A stretch of 64,000 nucleotides of DNA from Thermonema rossianum DSM 10300. GTDB taxonomy: Bacteria; Bacteroidota; Bacteroidia; Cytophagales; Thermonemataceae. Shown here piece after piece: positions 25,587 to 60,197 of the stretch. Location: NCBI RefSeq assembly GCF_000426825.1, contig NZ_AUGC01000009.1:1-64000 (forward strand). Reading direction: 5' to 3'. A program made the translations under genes and the position numbers. The notes beneath the pieces are model-generated. The model had not been told where the DNA came from, searched no databases, and was given only the letters and a program-made list of their open reading frames with translations. Positions within the stretch are counted from its first letter, which is position 1; each line of letters begins with the position of its first letter.

Positions 25587-26465
25587 ATGCGCTACCTGCT
25601 TTTGTGGATGTTTGCAGCTATTATATGCTTACCGGCTTGTAACCTTGAAAAAGTCATTGAAGTAGATTTGCCTGCGCATGACTCACAGCTGGTTGTAGAG
25701 TGTTACCTGGAGCACGGCAAACCCTACCGCTTACTGCTTACCGAGAGTGTCAATTATTTCAGCAGCCCCACCTTGCCCGATATCGATGATGCCACGGTTG
25801 TCATCACACATCAAGGGCAAAGCGTGGTACTTGAATACAAACCACAGTTAGACACCCTCACCGGCAAAATATACAATTATGCCTCCGATGCGTTGGTGGA
25901 CTCTACGGGTGGTGGCACCTACCGGCTCGAAATCAGCGATACACGCGGACGGCGTATCACCGCCGAAACGGCCTTTTTGCCCAAGGTGCCTATCACAGAA
26001 ATCACGTGGGAGTTTGAAGACAAAGACAAAGAAGAAAAAGACAGCACCGCCAAAGCCCTGTTGCTCATACGCCACTCCGAAGACCCGGAGCAAGAGAATT
26101 ATTACCGCATGCGCATTTTAAGGGACAGTGCACAAAAGCTTATCAACGAATTGGACTTTGTGTATCGTGGGCTCTTTGCCACCAACGGAGAACTTACTCT
26201 GGGCACTGCCTACCGCTTCGAAGACAAAGACACACTGCAGGTACTGCTTTATCATATCGACCGGCGCTTTTATGACTACTTCCGCACAATAGACGACGCC
26301 GTCGATGCCAACGGTAACCCTTTTGCTCCACCCGCCAATATCATTTCGGGGGTAGAAGGTGGCTGGGGGGTATTTGCTGCCTTAAGTTACGACCAAAAGA
26401 CGGTGGTAGTTCGAAAAGACAGTATTACTCAACGACAACACCTACAACCGTTACATCGTCGTTAA
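25587..26465 (+). CDS. DUF4249-like outer-membrane lipoprotein
   Basis: This 292-residue protein has a lipoprotein signal (lipobox LPAC near residue 18) and the DUF4249 opening NLEKVIEVDLPAHDSQLVVECYLEHGKPYRLLLTES. Proteins of this type are usually encoded next to a TonB receptor and probably act with it at the cell surface. It begins 4 bases after the receptor gene. The final 14 codons run into the 3' end of the convergent phosphatase gene (41-base overlap); the tail RQHLQPLHRR does not look conserved, so the natural stop may have been lost. Confidence 0.8.
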   Translation: MRYLLLWMFAAIICLPACNLEKVIEVDLPAHDSQLVVECYLEHGKPYRLLLTESVNYFSSPTLPDIDDATVVITHQGQSVVLEYKPQLDTLTGKIYNYASDALVDSTGGGTYRLEISDTRGRRITAETAFLPKVPITEITWEFEDKDKEEKDSTAKALLLIRHSEDPEQENYYRMRILRDSAQKLINELDFVYRGLFATNGELTLGTAYRFEDKDTLQVLLYHIDRRFYDYFRTIDDAVDANGNPFAPPANIISGVEGGWGVFAALSYDQKTVVVRKDSITQRQHLQPLHRR

Positions 26466-27915
26466 GCCGGTCGCTACCTCTCCATGCCCGGATTGCATCT
26501 ATCAGAAGTTGTTTTTGCTGCTCCGGTGTTTTATCTTTTATGGACTCAATCAAATGAAAAAGACAGCGGCTTCCATAACGCTTCGGGCGCTTTCCTTGTC
26601 TATGGCATAACTGATCTTTATAGCCATCTGTAAACAAATAAAAGCGATCACCGGCTTCAAGAAAAAATTCCACCTGATCACCGGGGGCATCATCGGCCGG
26701 CACTAATAAACGGTTGGCAAGTAAACCGGCACGTGAAGTGCGCAACTCATATAAAACTGCCTGTCGTGTCAATAAAAGTGGGATGCCTCTACCCGCAAAA
26801 GAAGCCTCTCCGGAAGGCGCTATTTTGAGTATACCTATATCGGCTCCGGTTTTCAGATAGAGCGCTTCATGATGTAAATAAAAATCCATTCTCTCCTCAT
26901 AAAGCTCGAACAGCTGCACCGGTGACAACCTTTTGTGCCGCTGCAACAAGTCTTGCAATGCCAAAACCGACGCACAGCTGAGCAAAGCACCCGGTAGCCC
27001 ATGCCCCGTGCAATCACCTATGCACACCCAATCATATCCATGGGCATGCATGCATAAGAAAAAGTCACCACTAACCCCATCTGCTCCTTGAAAAAGTAAG
27101 AACGACGAGGGAAAACGCTTTTTCAGATAGTTTTCGTAAGGCAGCAACAAGGACCGTTGTACCTGCCGGGCGCTTTCTAAAGCCTGCTTTAAGTCTTCCT
27201 GTTGTTGCTGTAATAGCTTTTTTTGTAACTCTACCAAGCGCTTTCCCTTTTCTTTTTCTTCTATGAAGCGATGTAAGCGCTCATTTTGCTTTTGCAGCAC
27301 TTCTACTGCTCTTTGCAGTTTATCCTTCCGAAGTGCCACTTCATTTAGAACTTTGCTCAAAAGCTTGCGTTCTACATAGCGATTCTTGAAGTAAAAGTAA
27401 CGCAGGGCACTGATAGAGTGACTTGCTACAATGCTAATAACCAGCCAACTGATTATGGGGGCATATTCTACAAGTGATAACTTGTAATAGAAAACATGCA
27501 TTCCCAAATGCACCAACAAGGCATATGCACCTTTTAAAACTATGTATTTAGGGCGTAGCACAGGGATAACCGAGCCCACAAAAAACATAATGCTCAGGGA
27601 TAATGCATATTGTGTGATATTGAGTGCATCGGTCCGGTAAGCGCGTGAGGTATAAAGCAACAGGCTGGTGCCCAGTAGCAACCATTCGTGGGATAAATGC
27701 TTGGTTTTATATAATACCACAAGACATGCAGTCAGCAGGATGGGTACCAGCCGCGTGTAAAACCATAGTGTTTCGTTGTCTTTGGGTACCGGTCCTTCTC
27801 TTAGGAACACCAAAGGAGAAAAGAATACAGCCAACAGAGTGCCCCAATAGTTATAAATGCTCCCTATCCGGTCGTATTCTTTTTTCCAATTGTCGTTCAG
27901 GTACGCATGAACCAT
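26425..27915 (-). CDS. 6TM SpoIIE-type PP2C phosphatase (paralogue 3)
   Basis: This 496-residue protein has about six membrane segments in its first ~180 residues, a Gln/Glu/Lys-rich coiled coil (~190-260), then a SpoIIE phosphatase domain. Metal and catalytic motifs are intact: GVSGDFF, IGDCTGHGLPGALLS, TGADIGILKI, FAGRGIPLLL, YLFTDGYKDQL and LNDDVTVVGV. Such enzymes usually dephosphorylate anti-sigma-factor antagonists in response to a signal; no partner gene is seen here. It is closest to the copy at 30254. It starts 12 bases after the carotenoid oxygenase C-terminal frame, so the two are likely co-transcribed. Confidence 0.9.
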   Translation of the reverse strand: MVHAYLNDNWKKEYDRIGSIYNYWGTLLAVFFSPLVFLREGPVPKDNETLWFYTRLVPILLTACLVVLYKTKHLSHEWLLLGTSLLLYTSRAYRTDALNITQYALSLSIMFFVGSVIPVLRPKYIVLKGAYALLVHLGMHVFYYKLSLVEYAPIISWLVISIVASHSISALRYFYFKNRYVERKLLSKVLNEVALRKDKLQRAVEVLQKQNERLHRFIEEKEKGKRLVELQKKLLQQQQEDLKQALESARQVQRSLLLPYENYLKKRFPSSFLLFQGADGVSGDFFLCMHAHGYDWVCIGDCTGHGLPGALLSCASVLALQDLLQRHKRLSPVQLFELYEERMDFYLHHEALYLKTGADIGILKIAPSGEASFAGRGIPLLLTRQAVLYELRTSRAGLLANRLLVPADDAPGDQVEFFLEAGDRFYLFTDGYKDQLCHRQGKRPKRYGSRCLFHLIESIKDKTPEQQKQLLIDAIRAWRGSDRLNDDVTVVGVVVE

Positions 27916-27927
27916 TGACCTGCCTAA

Positions 27928-29244
27928 TTACTGCTTCTTACCATATTCATACGGAAAGACATATTCTTCAAACAGTTGCGTAATGGCTTGGCGGTGCTTG
28001 CGTCTTTTGATACCTTTGAGCATGGGCAAATAATCCTCTTTCACATTCAGGCAATAGGGCGGCTGGCTCACCTCTTGGGCTTCGGGCACCCACACGCTGT
28101 GAATCGTAAAGCCAAAGAGCAAATCGGGATGCCCCAGACGGGCAAGCGGTCCTTGCGACAAATTGGCTGCATCGAACACCCATATTTCCGAGGTATATTG
28201 CCCGGCACGGCAAGGCAAAACCGTACATAAAATATAGCCGTCTTGCTGGGGGTGCACACCGGGCGTTGGCTTGCGGCGTGGCACAAACTGTAAGGACCAC
28301 ATGTAGGTGCCTTCATCGAAGCGATAAGCATCGGTGGCTTTCATCTGTGCCGTGTCCACACAGAAAAGCACAAAGGGGGCACCTTGTTTTGTTTTCTCCA
28401 GCACTTTCTCTACCGGCAAAAGGCGGTGCCGTTCAGGGGAGTCATAGAGGTTGTAAATGAAAGAGGTAAGGCGCTCTTCTGCCAAACCATAACTCTGCCA
28501 ATAGACATAGCGTATGTCTTCCACGTTTTTCTCGGGCGAAAGCATGTCCCGGTAAGTGTAAAGCCCTATTGCCCAGGTGTGTGCCCCGGTAGGGTCTTCT
28601 TCTATATGCAAAAAGCGGCTTTCTTCTTCCAAAAGAAGCCCCTTTTCTGCATCAATCACGCATTTGCCTATCTTGCCTATGTCCATTTGCCCCACGGCAA
28701 TCAAGCCATACAGCTCTTCTTTTACGGCTTTGCCGGAAATCTTCTCTGTATCGTAAGGGCGCAGCCACTCTGCCGGACACGCCGAGCAGTTGTGTGCGGT
28801 ATGGATGGTTACTTTGCCGGCAGGATTGTCGTAGTTTACTGAAAAGTGCACTGTTTCGGAAGGGATGCGCACCCGCTTTGCTTTTACCTTCTTTGCACCG
28901 GGCTTGAGCGTGCGCCTGTCGATAAGATATACCGTAGAGTAGTCTGCCATCACCCCGCTCAGCAGTTTTCTAAAGAAAGCATCTATCTTGGAATTATGGG
29001 GAAATGGGTTGTTGAGCATGATGTCGAAAGAGAATTTAAAATTGGTATCGCCCAACACCAGGTAGTCTCTTGACAACCCCAGCTGATGCATATTGTGGCG
29101 TATTTCGATGCTCCGTCCCCGCTCGTCTGTCACCACCCAGGCTTCGGGGCGGCGCTGCCCCGTCCAACGAATCAAATAGACATTGTTGCGGTTGGAATAG
29201 AGGTGTCCTACGAGCCTGTACCACCAATCTTGCAGTTTGTGCAA
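27928..29244 (-). CDS. carotenoid oxygenase family, C-terminal part (frameshifted gene)
   Basis: This frame encodes about 438 residues from a TTG codon at 29244, but it is open further upstream and reads as the continuation of the frame ending at 29271. It carries three of the four iron-binding histidines expected of the RPE65/carotenoid cleavage family: H53 (NMHQLGLSRDYLVLGDT), H133 (TVHFSVNYDNPAG) and H382 (FGFTIHSVWVPE). The first histidine is in the other frame. The family cleaves carotenoid or stilbenoid double bonds. By itself this part cannot form the seven-bladed propeller, so either the frames are joined or the gene is dead. Confidence 0.8.
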   Translation of the reverse strand: MHKLQDWWYRLVGHLYSNRNNVYLIRWTGQRRPEAWVVTDERGRSIEIRHNMHQLGLSRDYLVLGDTNFKFSFDIMLNNPFPHNSKIDAFFRKLLSGVMADYSTVYLIDRRTLKPGAKKVKAKRVRIPSETVHFSVNYDNPAGKVTIHTAHNCSACPAEWLRPYDTEKISGKAVKEELYGLIAVGQMDIGKIGKCVIDAEKGLLLEEESRFLHIEEDPTGAHTWAIGLYTYRDMLSPEKNVEDIRYVYWQSYGLAEERLTSFIYNLYDSPERHRLLPVEKVLEKTKQGAPFVLFCVDTAQMKATDAYRFDEGTYMWSLQFVPRRKPTPGVHPQQDGYILCTVLPCRAGQYTSEIWVFDAANLSQGPLARLGHPDLLFGFTIHSVWVPEAQEVSQPPYCLNVKEDYLPMLKGIKRRKHRQAITQLFEEYVFPYEYGKKQ

Positions 29245-29270
29245 CCAACGGCTAAGCCCGGGACGGGTCT

Positions 29271-30104
29271 CTATTCTATCCCGTATTTTTTCAACACCTC
29301 TTCTACTTCCTCTACCAAGTCTATTTCTATATCCCTGTTGAGCCAGCCTTCCACTTTGCGCTCCAGCTCTTCTTCCAGTTCGTCGAGTGTTTCAAGGTTC
29401 CAGGCAAAGATGGTAGTTGCCTGCATGAGCGCCTTGGTTGTCTTTGTAAAATTCACAGAAAACACCTCGCGCGTTTCAGGGTCATATACGGGATGGGCGG
29501 TGGTGAGCACCATTTCAAAAGGTTGACGCATGAAAGGCGGCAAACCGGAGTGCCAGAAGGTATTTTCACCAATAGGCGTGATGCATTCCAAAGTAGCAGG
29601 GTCTATTTCAAAAGGACGCCCGGCATCGAAAGTAGCCAGCATACGCCATTCGCCATCATGCAAGCGAAAAGGCAAAAAAGCAGTATTCAGTTGGTTGCGG
29701 GTACCTAATAGGGGCGAAATGCGCGCCAACCCAAAACTGCGAAAGGCATAGCGCCAGAAGCGGTTGTCGGCGGGGTTGCACAAGGGGCTGGTTGCCACGT
29801 CGGCATGGTAACAAGGCGGGCGCAGTAAAGCGGTATTTACAACCACCTGCCCCCCATGGTTGAAGTCGAAACGAATCACATAACCATCGCCGTTGATAAG
29901 CGGCGAAGCATACTCTTGATTCACTTGACCACCGGGCAGCTGCTTTTGGTAAGGTAAACCACCGGAGTTGACGGTTCCGGCTGCCGTATTCAAAAAAACA
30001 TAACCGTACCAGTCATCGGGCACGGCTCCCTCAAGTACATGCAATGCTACGTTACGAAGCTCTTTGCGGGAAGCAATAAAAGGGAAAGGGCGGTCAGGTA
30101 TCAT
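29271..30104 (-). CDS. carotenoid oxygenase family, N-terminal part (frameshifted gene)
   Basis: These 277 residues match the N-terminal half of carotenoid oxygenases: GAVPDDWYGYVFLNTA, then LINGDGYVIRFDF (the 'GDGMVH' region), NTAFLPFR, MLATFDAGRPFEIDPATLE and the first iron ligand H204 in TTAHPVYDPETREVFSVN. Translation ends in VLKKYGIE and a TAG. Just before, the mRNA has GTTGAAAAAATACGG with six A (plus-strand T6 at 29286-29291). Reading one extra A would continue as KKIRDRIETRPGLSRW into the downstream frame and restore an enzyme of roughly 730 residues. Confidence 0.8.
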   Translation of the reverse strand: MIPDRPFPFIASRKELRNVALHVLEGAVPDDWYGYVFLNTAAGTVNSGGLPYQKQLPGGQVNQEYASPLINGDGYVIRFDFNHGGQVVVNTALLRPPCYHADVATSPLCNPADNRFWRYAFRSFGLARISPLLGTRNQLNTAFLPFRLHDGEWRMLATFDAGRPFEIDPATLECITPIGENTFWHSGLPPFMRQPFEMVLTTAHPVYDPETREVFSVNFTKTTKALMQATTIFAWNLETLDELEEELERKVEGWLNRDIEIDLVEEVEEVLKKYGIE

Positions 30105-30253
30105 TTTTATGTGATGTTAAAGTAAGTAATAAGCCTCTGCCATAGACAATGGCAATTAAGCCTTCTTGCGAAAAGACTTAATAATTTATGAAAAACCGGC
30201 ACCCCATCACAAGCAAATCCCCGCTTTTATGTTTAAAATTTTGTTAAGAACAC

Positions 30254-31732
30254 TTATACCACCTTAAACCCTACCACCGTTATGTCATCTGTAAATGCCT
30301 TGCCTGCCCGCCACAGCTGAATTTCCTCTTCAAAAAGCCGGTGCTGACGCGCCATGGGCACACCATGTGCTTTTTCTAAAAGCCGGAAAAGACGTCTGCG
30401 GCCATAACGCTGCGGGCGCTTGCTCTCTTTTAGCTGGTCTTTAAAGCCATCGGTCAACAGGTACACGCTATCACCCCGTTCCAAAAACACATCTACCTTT
30501 TTGTCTTGTTCCGGTTCCGGGGCTGCCAACAGACGGTTGGCCAATACGCCTGCCCGGGATGTACTCAACTCGTACACATTGCCTTGACGTATCAGTATCA
30601 GGGGAATTCCCCGCCCGGCATAAGAAGCCGCACCGGATGGAGAAATCTTCAATATGCCAACATCAGCACCAGTTTTTAGATTGACTGCTTCTTTGTGCAG
30701 ATAAAAATCCAGGCGCTCTTCGTACAGTTCAAGCAGCCGCTCCGGCGTCAGTTCCTTGTGCCGGTGCACCAAGTCGGCAAGTGCCATGACTGAAGCGCAG
30801 CTGAGCAGCACCCCCGAAACCCCGTGGCCGGTACAGTCGCCTACACACAGCCAATCTGCCCCGAAAGAACGTGTACACAAATAAAAATCGCCACTAATGC
30901 CCGAAGTTCCCTTGAAAAACACAAAGGACTCCGGAAACAGGCGCATTAAATGCTCCCTCGACATCCCCAACAGCCCTTCTTGCACCTGTGTGGCTTTCTG
31001 CAACATTACTTTCAACGTCTCCTGTTGCTCAAGAAGTGCTTGCTTCTGCCGTTCTAATGCCACGGTGCCTTCTTTCACCCGGATAATAGATTGCTTAAGT
31101 TTTTCGTTTTGCTTTTGCAATACCGCGGACACCCGCTCAAGCTGGTCCTGCTTGTGTAAAAGCTCACGCAACAGCTCGTTAAGCAGGCGGCGCTGAATGT
31201 ACTGATGTTTGAAATAATAATAACGGGCAATACCTATTCCATGACTTACCACTATACCGGTCAACACCCACCCGGCTATCAGAGCGTGTTCCGCAACAGA
31301 TTGTTTATAATAAAAGACATGCATGCCCAAATGAACCAACAGAGCAAACACCGCATTAAAGGCATAGCGGGCGGGACGCAAGACGGGAATCACCGCACTG
31401 GTAAAAAACATAATGCTTGCAGAGATGGTATATTGTGTTAAGTCTTGCGCATGCACCCGGTAAGCCCGTGAAGTATATAACAGCAGCCCTGTAAGTTGCA
31501 CAAGTAACTCGTGTGAAAGCCGTTTTCTTTTATAGAGCACAATCAGTAAGGCAATAAGCACGACCGGTACCAAGCGCGAAAGCAACCACCATGTCTCATT
31601 GTCTTTTGGGCGGGCACTTTCGGTAAGAAACGCTAAAGGCGAAAACAACACTGCCAGCAGCGCCCCCCAGTAGTTGTAGATACCACCAATACGCTCATGT
31701 TCTTGCTCCCAACTGTCTTGTAAGTACTTCAT
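30254..31732 (-). CDS. 6TM SpoIIE-type PP2C phosphatase (paralogue 2)
   Basis: This 492-residue protein has the same layout as its neighbours: six membrane segments, a coiled coil and a SpoIIE domain. Active-site motifs are GISGDFYLC, VGDCTGHGVSGVLLS, TGADVGILKI, YAGRGIPLIL, YLLTDGFKDQL and FTDDITVVGF. The N-termini of this copy and the one at 26425 share YNYWG, KDNETxW and SRAYR segments, so they are more recent duplicates of each other than of the 31808 copy. It lies 75 bases after that copy and 149 bases before the carotenoid oxygenase gene. Confidence 0.9.
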   Translation of the reverse strand: MKYLQDSWEQEHERIGGIYNYWGALLAVLFSPLAFLTESARPKDNETWWLLSRLVPVVLIALLIVLYKRKRLSHELLVQLTGLLLYTSRAYRVHAQDLTQYTISASIMFFTSAVIPVLRPARYAFNAVFALLVHLGMHVFYYKQSVAEHALIAGWVLTGIVVSHGIGIARYYYFKHQYIQRRLLNELLRELLHKQDQLERVSAVLQKQNEKLKQSIIRVKEGTVALERQKQALLEQQETLKVMLQKATQVQEGLLGMSREHLMRLFPESFVFFKGTSGISGDFYLCTRSFGADWLCVGDCTGHGVSGVLLSCASVMALADLVHRHKELTPERLLELYEERLDFYLHKEAVNLKTGADVGILKISPSGAASYAGRGIPLILIRQGNVYELSTSRAGVLANRLLAAPEPEQDKKVDVFLERGDSVYLLTDGFKDQLKESKRPQRYGRRRLFRLLEKAHGVPMARQHRLFEEEIQLWRAGKAFTDDITVVGFKVV

Positions 31733-31807
31733 TGGCTGTAATATTCACCCTGTCCTTCTCTTCCATAAAGTCAAGTTGTAATAAGTGGTCATTCCGCCCT
31801 GCAAGCA

Positions 31808-33316
31808 TTATAGACGTACGCCTACAAGAGAAATATCGTCCAATTGCTTTTGTTGACCTTCTGCCATCCAGTTTTCCAACTGTTGTTCCAGTATTTTGCC
31901 TTGTTCAGGCATAGGCAAATGGCTAACAGACTGCAACAGCTCACGTAACCGGCGGGAACCAAACTTTCGTCTTCCCTTGGGCCCGCCAAACTGATCCTGA
32001 TAGCCATCTGACAACAAATACAGACAATCGCCCGCCCGGTAATGAATCACTTCTTCCTTAAAGCGCTCATCTATAGACCGGAAGTTGCTTCCTCCCACAT
32101 TGCGCCGGCTACCCTCTATTTTGTGTAATTCGCCATTCTTTACATACAAAATGGGACTATTGGCAGCTGCTACCTTCAAGACATTTTGGCGCCTGTCGAT
32201 ACAGACAATGCCCACATCCATTCCATCGCCGGATTGGCTTCCTGCTTGACGTAACAAATAAGGAATTTCTTTACTCATATGCTCAAGCACCGCTGCCGGA
32301 CCGGTAACAGGATGGCGCAACACGAAGTTGTTCAACGAAGCATAGCCCAGCATGCTCATGAGGGCGCCGGGCACCCCATGCCCCGTGCAGTCCACCACTG
32401 CAAGCCAAAGCAGGTCGTCTTCTGTTTCCAAGAGCCAGTAGAAGTCACCGCTTACAATATCGCGTGGTTTATACAACACAAAATATTCCTTCAAAGCCTC
32501 ATCAAGCTCTTCGCGCTTAGGCAGAATAGCCTCTTGAATGCGCTTGGCATAGTGAATACTATCGAGAATATGTTGGTTTTGCTCCTCAATAAGGCGCTTT
32601 TGCTCTTCTATCTCATCACGCTGTGCCATGATTTCTTCATTCTGTTGGCGCAGCTCTTCGTTTTTCTCTCTCAGCTCCGCTTGAAAGGCTTCCAGCTGAC
32701 GGTTCTTTTCTTCCAAAGAAAGCAGTGCTTTCTGAAGCACCAGCTTATGCCTGAAAGCATTTTTAAAATAATAATAGCGGGCAATGCCCATGGTATAGCT
32801 CACAATAGCGCCCACCAAAAAGAGCGCAGCGATGCGCTGTGTCCAGAACTCTACAAAACTTTTTTCATTGAATACGATAAAAAAAGTGATGTTGATGACT
32901 ATGGTATAAACGAAGTTCAGTACAAAATAGGCAGGGCGCATAATCGGTACCAGGGGGATAGTCAAAAATAAAGTGGCATTAAAAATTAAATAGCCCAGCC
33001 ACTCGTCAGGATTTACCCAGTAGGCGCCCGAAGTAAACAAAAGCATCCCGGTCAGCTGCATCATACGGTCGTGCCGCACATAACCCAGGCGGTAAAGTAC
33101 AAGCAAAAGACCAATAAGCAGAGAAGGAGCCAAACGAAACAAATACCACCAGTCCGGATCTGCTTTGGGCAGACGCATTTCAACCAAAAGGGCAAGTGGC
33201 AAAAAAAGAGCTGCCAAAATAGCGCCCCAAAAGTTATACAAAGCCCCTAAGCGTTCATATTCTTTCTCCCACTCTTTGTCTAAGTCAATCTTTAAAAACT
33301 GATCGATGGATGTCAT
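31808..33316 (-). CDS. 6TM SpoIIE-type PP2C phosphatase (paralogue 1)
   Basis: This 502-residue membrane phosphatase opens the minus-strand block. Six hydrophobic segments are followed by a long coiled coil (LEEKNRQLEAFQAELREKNEELRQQNEEIMAQRDEIEEQK) and the catalytic domain with KPRDIVSGDFYWL, AVVDCTGHGVPGALMSMLGYASLN, GMDVGIVCI, SDGYQDQFGGPKGRRKFGSRRLRELL and LDDISLVGVRL. The KPRDIVSGDFYW and SDGYQDQFGG wording is the form usual in Bacteroidota; the two other copies have drifted from it. The membrane part has no recognisable sensor motif. Confidence 0.92.
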   Translation of the reverse strand: MTSIDQFLKIDLDKEWEKEYERLGALYNFWGAILAALFLPLALLVEMRLPKADPDWWYLFRLAPSLLIGLLLVLYRLGYVRHDRMMQLTGMLLFTSGAYWVNPDEWLGYLIFNATLFLTIPLVPIMRPAYFVLNFVYTIVINITFFIVFNEKSFVEFWTQRIAALFLVGAIVSYTMGIARYYYFKNAFRHKLVLQKALLSLEEKNRQLEAFQAELREKNEELRQQNEEIMAQRDEIEEQKRLIEEQNQHILDSIHYAKRIQEAILPKREELDEALKEYFVLYKPRDIVSGDFYWLLETEDDLLWLAVVDCTGHGVPGALMSMLGYASLNNFVLRHPVTGPAAVLEHMSKEIPYLLRQAGSQSGDGMDVGIVCIDRRQNVLKVAAANSPILYVKNGELHKIEGSRRNVGGSNFRSIDERFKEEVIHYRAGDCLYLLSDGYQDQFGGPKGRRKFGSRRLRELLQSVSHLPMPEQGKILEQQLENWMAEGQQKQLDDISLVGVRL

Positions 33317-33529
33317 AAAGTTTATTTGGTATTAGGCAAGCCGAATAAATACAGCCCACAATTTATAGAAAATGACGGTTTGAAATAAAACACGCCCCTT
33401 ATGAAACATGTAATATTTTACAAAACAAAACACATAAACAAACTTTCACTTGCCTTAATAAAACGCCTGCACATTATTTAATTTTCCTTATATTCATAAG
33501 GGAAAAAAACAGTAGCTCATTTTTAAATT

Positions 33530-55717: not shown

Positions 55718-58700
55718 TTAAGCGGTCGTCAATTCGCCGGCAATCAATTCGGCTTGTTTCAAAACGGTCTCTGTTGCCAGTTTTGCCATATCCGGCGGGT
55801 ATCCATATTGGCGAAGTGTGCGCTTGATGATTACTTTTAGTTTTGCACGGACGCTTTCTTTGATGGTCCAATCAATTGTTGCATTGTTCTTCACTTTTTC
55901 AGTTAAGACAACGGCAAGCTCTCTAAGCTTTTCTTTTCCCATGAGCTCTCTTGCGCTCTTGTTTTCAGCCACAGCCGTGTAAAAAGCATATTCAAAATCG
56001 GACAAGCCCAGCTCTTCGGCTTGTTTGTCCAAGGCAACAATTTCCTTACTGATTTTTATAAGTTCTTCGATGACTTCGGCAGCCGTTAAAATTTTGTTGT
56101 GGTATTTTTTTATGGCGCTCTCCAGCATTTCTTTCAGCGACTTGCTTTTTACCAAGTTTGTTCTGGAGCGGGCTTTTATTTCGTCATTCAATAATTTTTT
56201 GAGCACCTCCATTGCTACGTTTTTGTGCTCCATGCCCTTTAGTTCAAGCAAAAACTCTTCTGAAAGAATGGAGATGTCGGGTTTTTTGATTCCTGCCGCA
56301 TCGAAAATATCAATCACTTGCTCGGATACCAATGCTTTATCGATTACTTGCCGGATGGTGGTTTCAATTTCTTCATTCGTTTTTCCCGAGCCGGTAGCGT
56401 CAAATTTTGCCAAACGTGCTTTTACTGCCTGAAAAAATGCCACTTCGTCCTTTACGTCCATTGCCTTGTCGTGGGGCACAGCCAAGGCAAATGCTTTTGA
56501 CAATGCCGTAACCTCATTGATGAAGCGTTTTTTACCGTCTTCCAAGGACAGAATATGTTCTTGTGCCTCTAATATGATAGAAAGTTTTTTTGAAGTAGCG
56601 GCACGGAAATAGGCTTTATAGTCAAAGCCATAAAGCATTTGTTGCACTACCTCCAATTTTTCGAGCATCAAATTCACTGCCTGCTCTTGCGCAATGGCAG
56701 GCTCTCCTCTTCCGCCCGAGTCAGAATAAAAAGACAGGGCTTTTTTCAAGTCGGAAGCGATGCCCAGGTAATCAACCACCAAGCCACCCGGTTTGTCTTT
56801 GTACACCCTGTTTACGCGCGCTATCGCCTGCATAAGGTTATGCCCTTTCATGGGCTTGTCGATATAGAGCGTATGCATGCAGGGGGCATCAAAGCCGGTA
56901 AGCCACATGTCTCTTACGATGACCAACTTCAGTTCATCGTTGGGGTCTTTCATGCGCTCTGCCAGTATTTTCCGTTGTTGTTTGGAGGTGTGGTGTTTGG
57001 CAATTTTTGGACCGTCGGAAGAAGAAGAGGTCATCACTACTTTTATAGCGCCCTTATCCAATTCATCGGAATGCCACTCGGGACGCAGCTTGATGATTTC
57101 TTCATATAGCTCGGCAGCGATGCGGCGTGACATGGTAACAATCATTCCTTTTCCTTCGAAAATTTCTTGGCGCTTTTCGAAGTGCTCCACAATATCTTTT
57201 GCTACGTTTTTTAAGCGGCTTTCACTTCCTATCAGCGCTTCCAGCTGTGTCCATTTGGCTTTTACTTTTTGGGTTTCGGTGAGGTCTTCTTGCTCGAGTT
57301 CTTCATCGAGTTGCTCCAGTAGTTTTCGCCCTTCTTCCGAAAGGTTTACTTTGGCTAACCTGCTTTCGTAATAGATGGGCACGGTGGCGCCGTCTTCCAC
57401 GGCTTGCGCGATGTCGTAGATGTCGATGTAGTTGCCAAATACCGCGGGGGTGTTTTTATCGTCTTTTTCCACGGGTGTACCCGTAAAACCTATATATGTG
57501 GCATTGGGCAGGGCGTCGCGCAAATACTTGGCAAAACCATATTTCAGTTCGCCGGTAGATTTGTCTATTTTGCCTTTGAAGCCATATTGGGTGCGATGGG
57601 CTTCATCAACGATGACAATGATGTTTTCTCGTTCGGAAAGGGTTTCAAAGACATTTCCCTCTTCGGGTTGAAATTTTTGAATGGTGGTAAAGATAATACC
57701 TCCGGAAGCGACTTTCAATTTTTCTTTCAGGTCTTGACGGCTCTCGGCTTGCTTGGGCTCTTGACGCAACAGCTGGGTGGAAGCGGCGAAGGTATTGAAC
57801 AATTGGTCGTCGAGGTCGTTGCGGTCTGTAATGACTACAACGGTGGGGTTATCCATTGCCAAGACAATCTTTCCGGTAAAGAAAACCATTGACAGGGATT
57901 TGCCACTGCCTTGGGTATGCCAGACAACCCCTCCTTTCCTGTCTCCTTTGGGCTGTTGTTTCACTCCTGGCAAGCTGTACTGCTCGGGTGATTCTTCTAC
58001 GAAGTTTTGCTGCGAAGGAGGAGTTGATGGTTCTTTTCCTTGAAAGGCAGGATGATCGTAAAGCCACTGCATTACTGCATCTATGCTTTGCAAAATTTCT
58101 TTTGCCGGTATATGAATGACGGTTAATCCCAGCGATTGGAGATAATGGTCTCTTTCGGCATCATATTCCATTTTATCATCATGGCTGCTCCCGTCTATTT
58201 CAATCACTACCTGATAATTGGGGCAATAAAAATCAACAATATAGTTTCCGATAATTTTTTGCCTGTCAAAATCCAAGCCTTTAAATTTTCCCTTATGGAC
58301 TCGTTGCCAGAATAATACCTCAGCAAGGTTGCCTGCTTTGCGCAATTCTCTTGCCCGTTCTTTAAGTTTTGGATTGTAAGGCAGGCTGAAATAGTTTTTG
58401 TTGGCTCTTTTTACCACCCCGTCAGACTTCGTCTGCCACCCCTCCAAAGGAGGGGAACTAACCACCCCGGTCTTCGACCACCCCTCCAAAGGAGGGGAAT
58501 AGTTGGCGGCTCTCAGGACCGACTCTACCGCCTTGTTTACGGCATAGTATTGATGGTAAGCTGCCAGTTTCTTTATGGTAGCGATGGTTATCTGTCCGGT
58601 TTTCGGGTCTTCGCGCTTTGATTTTTCATATACGATAAAGTGCCTGATTAAATCAAGCAAGGTGGTTTTGTTGAGCATGCCTTTGATGAGGGTTTCCAGC

Positions 58701-59386
58701 TGGCTGACCAGCTGCGAAGCCTCGCGCTTCCCGTCGGCTGATTTCCAAGCCATGAAACGGCTCATGTCCGCCGATAAGGTGCCTGCTCTGGCTTCGAAGC
58801 CATCCGAAATCACGGAAAAGGCGTTGTAGGTAAACAAGGAAGGAATGCTTTGCTTGTAGGTTTGTATTTGACGGAAAGCCGATTGTATGGTGGCATTTTC
58901 ATTGGCGGCATTCTTGAGCTCCATCACGACCAAAGGAATGCCGTTGACAAAAAGGACAATATCGGGGCGTTTGTTTACGCCGTTTTCAATGACCGTAAAT
59001 TGATTGACTACGACAAATTCGTTGTTTCCGGGGTTTTGAAAATCGATGAGACACACCGAGTCGCCGCGCGTTTGTCCGTCTTTTTGATAGGTAACTTTGA
59101 TGCCTTCGGTAAGCATGCGGTGAAAGGTTTCATTGGCGGCTATCAGCTCGGACGAGTGGACGCGCCGTACTTCTTTCAGGGCTTCTTCTTGTACCTCTGC
59201 CGGAACCGAAGGGTTTATTTTTTGAATCGCATTTTTCAGGCGGTTGGTGAGCAAGACGTCTTCATAGGCGGCTCTTTCGGGGTTCTCGCCGTCGGGGGCA
59301 ATGTGCGGACCATACAGATATTGAAAGCCCTGTTGTTGTAGCAGCTCTATGGCATATTGTTCTATGGTGTTTTCATTGAGTTTCAT
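55718..59386 (-). CDS. hsdR: type I restriction enzyme subunit R (HsdR) with inserted DUF559-like domain
   Basis: This 1222-residue subunit translocates and cuts unmodified DNA. The N-terminal nuclease has PDIVLFVNGIPLVVMELK (residues 141-158). The helicase has Walker A TQGSGKS (491-497) and DEAH (594-597), with ATPase domain 2 and a C-terminal helical tail. Between VNKAVESVLRAA (~293) and GDRKGGVVWHTQGSGKS (481) lies an extra ~187 residues absent from ordinary HsdR: two PPLEGW repeats then a PD-(D/E)XK domain of the DUF559/Vsr-like type. Without it the protein would be ~1035 residues, the normal length. It closes the operon with hsdM, hsdS and two extra genes. Confidence 0.92.
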   Translation of the reverse strand: MKLNENTIEQYAIELLQQQGFQYLYGPHIAPDGENPERAAYEDVLLTNRLKNAIQKINPSVPAEVQEEALKEVRRVHSSELIAANETFHRMLTEGIKVTYQKDGQTRGDSVCLIDFQNPGNNEFVVVNQFTVIENGVNKRPDIVLFVNGIPLVVMELKNAANENATIQSAFRQIQTYKQSIPSLFTYNAFSVISDGFEARAGTLSADMSRFMAWKSADGKREASQLVSQLETLIKGMLNKTTLLDLIRHFIVYEKSKREDPKTGQITIATIKKLAAYHQYYAVNKAVESVLRAANYSPPLEGWSKTGVVSSPPLEGWQTKSDGVVKRANKNYFSLPYNPKLKERARELRKAGNLAEVLFWQRVHKGKFKGLDFDRQKIIGNYIVDFYCPNYQVVIEIDGSSHDDKMEYDAERDHYLQSLGLTVIHIPAKEILQSIDAVMQWLYDHPAFQGKEPSTPPSQQNFVEESPEQYSLPGVKQQPKGDRKGGVVWHTQGSGKSLSMVFFTGKIVLAMDNPTVVVITDRNDLDDQLFNTFAASTQLLRQEPKQAESRQDLKEKLKVASGGIIFTTIQKFQPEEGNVFETLSERENIIVIVDEAHRTQYGFKGKIDKSTGELKYGFAKYLRDALPNATYIGFTGTPVEKDDKNTPAVFGNYIDIYDIAQAVEDGATVPIYYESRLAKVNLSEEGRKLLEQLDEELEQEDLTETQKVKAKWTQLEALIGSESRLKNVAKDIVEHFEKRQEIFEGKGMIVTMSRRIAAELYEEIIKLRPEWHSDELDKGAIKVVMTSSSSDGPKIAKHHTSKQQRKILAERMKDPNDELKLVIVRDMWLTGFDAPCMHTLYIDKPMKGHNLMQAIARVNRVYKDKPGGLVVDYLGIASDLKKALSFYSDSGGRGEPAIAQEQAVNLMLEKLEVVQQMLYGFDYKAYFRAATSKKLSIILEAQEHILSLEDGKKRFINEVTALSKAFALAVPHDKAMDVKDEVAFFQAVKARLAKFDATGSGKTNEEIETTIRQVIDKALVSEQVIDIFDAAGIKKPDISILSEEFLLELKGMEHKNVAMEVLKKLLNDEIKARSRTNLVKSKSLKEMLESAIKKYHNKILTAAEVIEELIKISKEIVALDKQAEELGLSDFEYAFYTAVAENKSARELMGKEKLRELAVVLTEKVKNNATIDWTIKESVRAKLKVIIKRTLRQYGYPPDMAKLATETVLKQAELIAGELTTA
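57947..58507 (-). mobile_element. in-frame insertion encoding a DUF559-like endonuclease domain within hsdR
   Basis: The insert corresponds to HsdR residues 294-480. Its nuclease core is about residues 332-446: NLAEVLFWQRVHKGKFKG, GNYIVDFYCPNYQVVIEIDG (D385, E396, D398) and LGLTVIHIPAKEIL. Two palindromic repeats flank its start. Its reading frame is kept through both junctions. It looks like a selfish nuclease domain that landed in a linker; that is inference from position and motifs. Confidence 0.75.
58420..58506. repeat. two PPLEGW-type palindromic repeats inside hsdR
   Basis: Two units each hold the palindrome CCCCTCCAAAGGAGGGG (about 58437-58454 and 58480-58497) preceded by a small hairpin (CAGAC-TTC-GTCTG and GGTC-TTC-GACC). 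On the minus strand they encode SPPLEGW-SK-TGVV and SPPLEGW-QTKSD-GVV, so the DNA palindrome is translated in both. Confidence 0.85.
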
Positions 59387-59468: not shown

Positions 59469-60197
59469 TTATATCATCCAAATTTCTGAATTGTATTCTG
59501 CTTGTGATTCCCTTATGGTGTTGCTGTTGTTGCTGTTTAATTTATCATTTTCCCATTTTTTGGGATTATTTATAATGTATTGTGTAATGCGATAATATTC
59601 ATTTTCATTTCGTATGACGTGTTCCCAATACCGGGGCTGCCATGCAAAAGATTGATTTATTTGGCGGGCATTTTTTGTTACGCCGATTTTAAATCCGCGA
59701 ACGATTGATGCCAAATTTTTGGATTGTGGACCGAATTTGTTTTTTGTTGATGGGGGTTCCGGTTGGGGTTGTAGAGACGCAATATTTTGCAGAGACGCAA
59801 TATTTTGTAGAGACGCAATATTTTGCAGAGACGCAATATTTTGCAGAGACGCAATATTTTGCAGAGACGCAATATTTTGTAGAGACGCAATATTTTGCGT
59901 CTCTACAATGTTTTTGTTCGCGTTGCGTTTATTGATAATGATAATGCCATGCACATGATTGGGCATAATGATATGCGCCCCCAATTCAACAAACGGAAAA
60001 TGATTGGATATTTCGTACCAACACGAATTGGCAATATGACCGATGGGAGACAATTGCATTGCACCGGATGAAATCTCTCCAAACCAACAATGTCTGTTTT
60101 TTGTGCAAATGGTGATAAAATACGCGCCATTCCAACCGTAATCCCAATTTTGCAATCGTGTTGACTCAATACGATATTTATTTTTGAATTTTCCCAT
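59469..60197 (-). CDS. REP-associated tyrosine transposase (RAYT, IS200-like)
   Basis: This 242-residue HUH transposase has the metal-binding HVH in IIMPNHVHGIIII (H81, H83) and a C-terminal NEYYRITQYIINNPKKW with the likely catalytic Tyr. Such proteins move or process short palindromic REP sequences. After the HUH strand the protein carries NIVETQ followed by seven NIASLQ units (residues 96-143), encoded by an 18-bp tandem repeat whose sequence is itself half of a REP-like palindrome. It lies 4 bases after hsdS within the restriction operon. Confidence 0.85.
   Translation of the reverse strand: MGKFKNKYRIESTRLQNWDYGWNGAYFITICTKNRHCWFGEISSGAMQLSPIGHIANSCWYEISNHFPFVELGAHIIMPNHVHGIIIINKRNANKNIVETQNIASLQNIASLQNIASLQNIASLQNIASLQNIASLQNIASLQPQPEPPSTKNKFGPQSKNLASIVRGFKIGVTKNARQINQSFAWQPRYWEHVIRNENEYYRITQYIINNPKKWENDKLNSNNSNTIRESQAEYNSEIWMI
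59771..59906. repeat. 18-bp tandem array ending in a perfect palindrome, inside the RAYT gene
   Basis: The unit AGAGACGCAATATTTTGY occurs seven times with exact 18-bp period, starting at 59773, 59791, 59809, 59827, 59845, 59863 and 59881. The last unit is completed at 59879-59906 as a 12-bp perfect inverted repeat GTAGAGACGCAA/TTGCGTCTCTAC around TATT. Confidence 0.95.

Follow-up and report, generated by a model that had tools for sequence, protein, structure and literature searches.

The carotenoid cleavage oxygenases (CCOs) have in common a seven-bladed propeller and an iron site of four histidines (PMC6097328). For the gene described here, the nearest solved fold is that of the Synechocystis apocarotenoid oxygenase (ACO), followed by NinaB, the lignostilbene dioxygenases and RPE65. 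Oxygenases of 720-790 residues are also encoded in Bacteroidota (Marivirga, Bernardetiaceae, Algoriphagus and others), each as one open frame, and in several of them a SpoIIE phosphatase adjoins the oxygenase. Two further groups of genes offer themselves for comparison because of the way in which our gene is broken. These are the young frameshift pseudogenes that form at homopolymers, a known phenomenon, and the genes expressed by programmed -1 frameshifting or transcriptional slippage, with overlapping open frames that meet at an A-run.

Here, we describe an RPE65/CCO gene that is split over two frames on the minus strand of a 64,000-nucleotide stretch of the Thermonema rossianum DSM 10300 genome, referred to below as the window. 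The gene resembles the ACO/RPE65 superfamily in the Pfam match of both halves, the four invariant histidines and the propeller fold predicted for an intact homologue. It differs from ACO in being about 240 residues longer, in having a helical insertion, in a sequence identity of only 14-15% and in lying over two frames. With the Bacteroidota oxygenases it shares equal length across the run of six A at which the frames meet, and an identity of about 31-59%, but they are single open frames and the window's copy is not. We read the break as an ordinary, very young frameshift, caused by a one-base change in the length of the A-run of an otherwise intact CCO gene, and give this reading a probability of about 0.57.

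The first part of the gene (29271 to 30104, minus strand) comprises 277 codons, ends in a TAG at 29273-29271 and holds the first iron-binding histidine (residue 204). The second part (27928 to 29292, minus strand) lies in the -1 frame, which is open over 487 codons that span all of 29292 to the stop at 27928, and holds the other three (residues 340, 420 and 669 of the joined product). The 1+3 division of the iron ligands reported in a preliminary description of this DNA therefore stands, and its placing of the junction proved correct as well. The frames meet at six A on the coding strand (29286 to 29291, T6 on the plus strand), within the sequence GAG GTG TTG AAA AAA TAC GGG ATA GAA TAG. It had also been proposed that continuing across the run leads into the second frame. 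Joined in this way, the product has 725 residues, there are no stop codons in the joined frame, and the alignment to homologues runs through unbroken. Around the junction the sequence is Lys/Glu-rich and poorly conserved, and the homologues differ there in length.

A tblastn search with an intact relative returned two matches (query residues 4-273 and 281-724), which lie in different frames and join at the A6 run. In 1.66 Mb of the genome there are 788 same-strand neighbour pairs, of which seven have comparable geometry. By inspection, only the CCO pair resembles two halves of one protein, and the other pairs were rejected as split genes on that ground. Since two adjacent open frames correspond, in the right order, to successive halves of a single domain, the pattern is not due to chance.

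Both parts match the Pfam family PF03055 (RPE65), one after the other along the profile (positions 5-172 and 179-469), and score 53.5 and 48.2 bits where the cut-off is 27. The four histidine columns are invariant in 61 of 61 aligned sequences, and all four residues are present in the window's gene. The seven-bladed beta-propeller fold was judged on a model of the intact homologue L043 (pLDDT 84, pTM 0.88), which serves as a stand-in for the window's own protein. The best PDB matches in a fold search with this model were all carotenoid or stilbene oxygenases, with Synechocystis ACO first (E 1e-19, TM (target) about 0.7); a PDB sequence search with the intact homologue gave no match. Residue 273 of L043, which corresponds to the junction, is placed with modest confidence within a helix of a helical insertion (~222-304) between two strands. 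In the window the corresponding insertion, Lys/Glu-rich and weakly conserved, would extend over ~29191 to 29441 (minus strand), as judged from the alignment, and the model puts the break there, outside the propeller core. On its sequence, we regard the gene as a member of the known carotenoid cleavage oxygenase superfamily, predicted to cleave a carotenoid, an apocarotenoid or a stilbene. One other genome (G045; loci L012 and L016) encodes a 684-codon oxygenase homologue in an open frame that apparently does without the conserved iron histidines (the MHQ and IHS motifs, for instance, are missing) and that is possibly a non-catalytic member.

Ten of 59 related whole genomes, the window's own included, match the second part of the gene. 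In the closest relative (G005, 59% identity) the gene is one uninterrupted frame of 737 codons, and the others are mostly of similar length. When 84,980 species genomes were scanned, 79 homologous loci were obtained, and 77 of these, including some that are ended by the end of a contig, are uninterrupted across the match. We therefore rejected a conserved two-gene oxygenase; homologues encoded as two separate proteins with the same break, which the preliminary description had raised as the observation that would speak against its account, were not among these loci. Both broken loci represent poor data. L094 belongs to a metagenome-assembled genome (MAG) of 3x coverage and has two breaks, one of them at an A7 run (L094:5880-5890) that is situated about 35 residues upstream within the same variable linker, and the break in L102 adjoins N's. 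Within this sample the break is private to the window's genome, and neither the A6 run nor the frame change is common to the homologues.

It had been noted earlier that both halves look fully conserved, and the alignment bears this out: of the columns with an identity of 95% or more across 60 homologues, the window's gene retains all 65. No further lesions are visible in the joined alignment. When neutral decay was simulated, the first stop or loss of an invariant residue came after a median of 7 substitutions, and 95% of runs were damaged by 28 substitutions (1.3% of sites). The break is young, because all of the near-invariant columns are kept and there is no other damage, and constraint was either lost very recently or never lost. 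A relative-rate comparison with the closest homologue gave results that were mixed by outgroup, with no clear acceleration.

Under our preferred reading, a gene that normally encodes a CCO of roughly 725 residues in one frame would have undergone a recent one-base change in the length of its A-run, by replication slippage at the homopolymer, in the sequenced strain. A ribosome would then meet the TAG four codons beyond the run and yield a truncated product of 277 residues. This product would have one of the four iron ligands and is probably inactive, so the enzyme would be lost or nearly lost. Rare, leaky read-through of the A6 run is possible, and no sign was found that it is used. The gene is like the young frameshift pseudogenes in its single-base break at an A-run, in being otherwise intact and in being dispensable in a sister species; it differs from them in that we infer the loss of function.

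The preliminary description had named a recent mutation, a sequencing error or slippage as the possible origins of the break. Recent mutation is the best supported of the three, error is possible, though a genome-wide control does not favour it, and slippage is without positive support. An assembly or sequencing error would mean that one base of the homopolymer was miscalled and that the gene is intact in the organism, and we hold this to be the less likely account, though one to be taken seriously. Homopolymers are the usual place of sequencing errors, and a gene that is otherwise undamaged, with every near-invariant residue in place, suits such an error, from which the absence of secondary decay is equally expected. 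In addition, the sole homologue with a comparable A-run break in the same linker is the low-coverage L094 with its second break. Against this stands the control, which consisted of about 600 genes with an orthologue in a second species of the same genus (G001; median 86% identity), covering ~698 kb and 1,345 homopolymers at least 6 bases long. In these genes, which are conserved ones, no homopolymer frameshifts were found, which puts the error rate at less than about 0.2% per run (95% upper bound, rule of three). Of seven candidate frameshifts that had been flagged, the five that were looked at closely proved to be adjacent genes or frames on the antisense strand, and the remaining two are matches of low identity (about 45-57%); they were not accepted as a sign of poor assembly. 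With no homopolymer frameshift in the control, the assembly is evidently reliable at runs of this kind, which speaks for a real mutation, and the presence of only one such split gene among the neighbour pairs points the same way. We infer that the base change exists in the organism, beyond the assembly alone, and a real mutation is favoured over an assembly error.

It is improbable that recoding takes place at the A6 run in this lineage, to give a truncated oxygenase of 277 residues and a full-length one of 725, or that the two parts are separately translated and assemble. Recoding on its own, for which we see a slightly slimmer chance, would require RNA polymerase or the ribosome to slip on the A6 run, whether as a programmed event or as a leaky rescue, so that both products are made. 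Ribosomal -1 sites take the form of an X XXY YYZ heptamer, and no canonical slippery heptamer is present at the junction, where the context is TTG AAA AAA TAC; with the frame G AAA AAA T, slippage of two tRNAs would mispair in the P site. The downstream RNA might be thought to act as a stimulator, as a 100-nt stretch of it folds at z = -2.2, but 4.5% of 334 coding windows reach this value and the shorter stretches give -0.5 (60 nt) and -0.3 (80 nt), and a downstream hairpin is probably nothing unusual. The second frame shows no relaxation, as recoding would lead one to expect, and the break falls in a variable linker, a kind of location in which frameshifts were bypassed more often in laboratory work (PMC3812077). 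As the bypass in that work took place at repeats of 4-8 bases between conserved motifs, slight leakiness at the A6 run is plausible. On the other side, slippage by the RNA polymerase of E. coli could not be detected unless a run had at least 7 T or 8 A (PMC6260861), and the A6 run is below this threshold, which is that of E. coli and not of the host. Over a thousand six-base runs in the conserved genes of this genome are decoded normally. The window's gene thus shares with genes of programmed -1 frameshifting or transcriptional slippage the overlapping open frames that meet at an A-run, and is set apart from them by a run too short for the E. coli polymerase, the lack of a canonical heptamer, an apparently unexceptional downstream structure and the lack of conservation of the site.

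A split enzyme, with each frame translated on its own and the two products forming a single propeller, is very improbable. The break does fall in a helical insertion outside the propeller core of the homologue's model, and the second frame's first conventional start codon, a TTG at 29242 to 29244 (minus strand), is 27 nt beyond the stop of the first frame; no other start is plausible for an independent second protein. However, the second part has neither an ATG nor a GTG start close to the junction, and no homologue is reliably encoded as two proteins. The retention of the conserved residues in both halves would suit a split enzyme, but recency explains it equally well. We give least credence of all to phase variation through changes in the length of the A-run. 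The homopolymer is positioned inside the coding region, as this would need, but contingency tracts are usually longer than six bases, runs of this length are common (1,215 A6 and 1,288 T6 in 1.66 Mb), and the homologues have no comparable conserved feature at the site.

The preferred reading, a young frameshift, concerns a gene that is not found throughout the group. In the family, the oxygenase gene is present in two of eight genomes. It is absent from the genome of the sister species G001, and the gene is therefore dispensable in the genus. The G001 genes that flank the site on both sides are 88-97% identical to those of the window, and the distance from a fatty-acid-hydroxylase-like gene to trmD leaves space for no more than TonB-type and lipoprotein genes. 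Similarity to the window ends at window position 33483, beside the phosphatase end of the cluster; from the distances, and with the interval read except for ~1.8 kb in its middle, the whole cluster is probably absent from the G001 site. Microbial rhodopsins are consumers of retinal, and we considered a link with the oxygenase. A microbial rhodopsin was found in some oxygenase-bearing relatives and none was detectable in the window's own genome. The link was not convincing, as a rhodopsin is present in 5 of the 10 oxygenase-bearing genomes and in 13 of the 49 others (59 genomes).

Three SpoIIE-type phosphatases surround the oxygenase in the window (26425-33316), all on the minus strand. One lies directly downstream (26425 to 27915), where several relatives likewise have such a phosphatase, and a paralogue 56% identical to it lies upstream (30254 to 31732). 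The third (31808 to 33316) is the most similar to the phosphatase that comes after the oxygenase in relatives; at the Bacteroidota loci L004, L005, L038, L043 and L044 the oxygenase is immediately followed by such a phosphatase, with 38-43% identity to the third. One might guess at a regulatory link between SpoIIE-type phosphatases and carotenoid cleavage.

Elsewhere in the window, a type I restriction R subunit (55718-59386) contains a DUF559 nuclease-like domain (PF04480, residues 340-443). This domain (about 58370-58060) lies in frame between HSDR_N and the helicase, beside SPPLEGW-type repeats, and resembles a mobile element whose insertion left the frame intact. The type I restriction genes have between them a small transposase-like gene (59469-60197), for which a Pfam search gave no match and which includes seven copies of an 18-base tandem repeat (59769-59898) that encode an in-frame NIASLQ repeat.

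For the annotation of this genome, our results mean that two gene models should become one frameshifted oxygenase gene. The break is most likely not a new gene-decoding trick, and would be of wider interest only if the full-length product were shown. If the mutation is real, the locus offers a snapshot of gene loss, in which the sister species is without the gene and this species, in whose genome no rhodopsin was detectable, keeps a copy that is perfect but for the one break in its frame.
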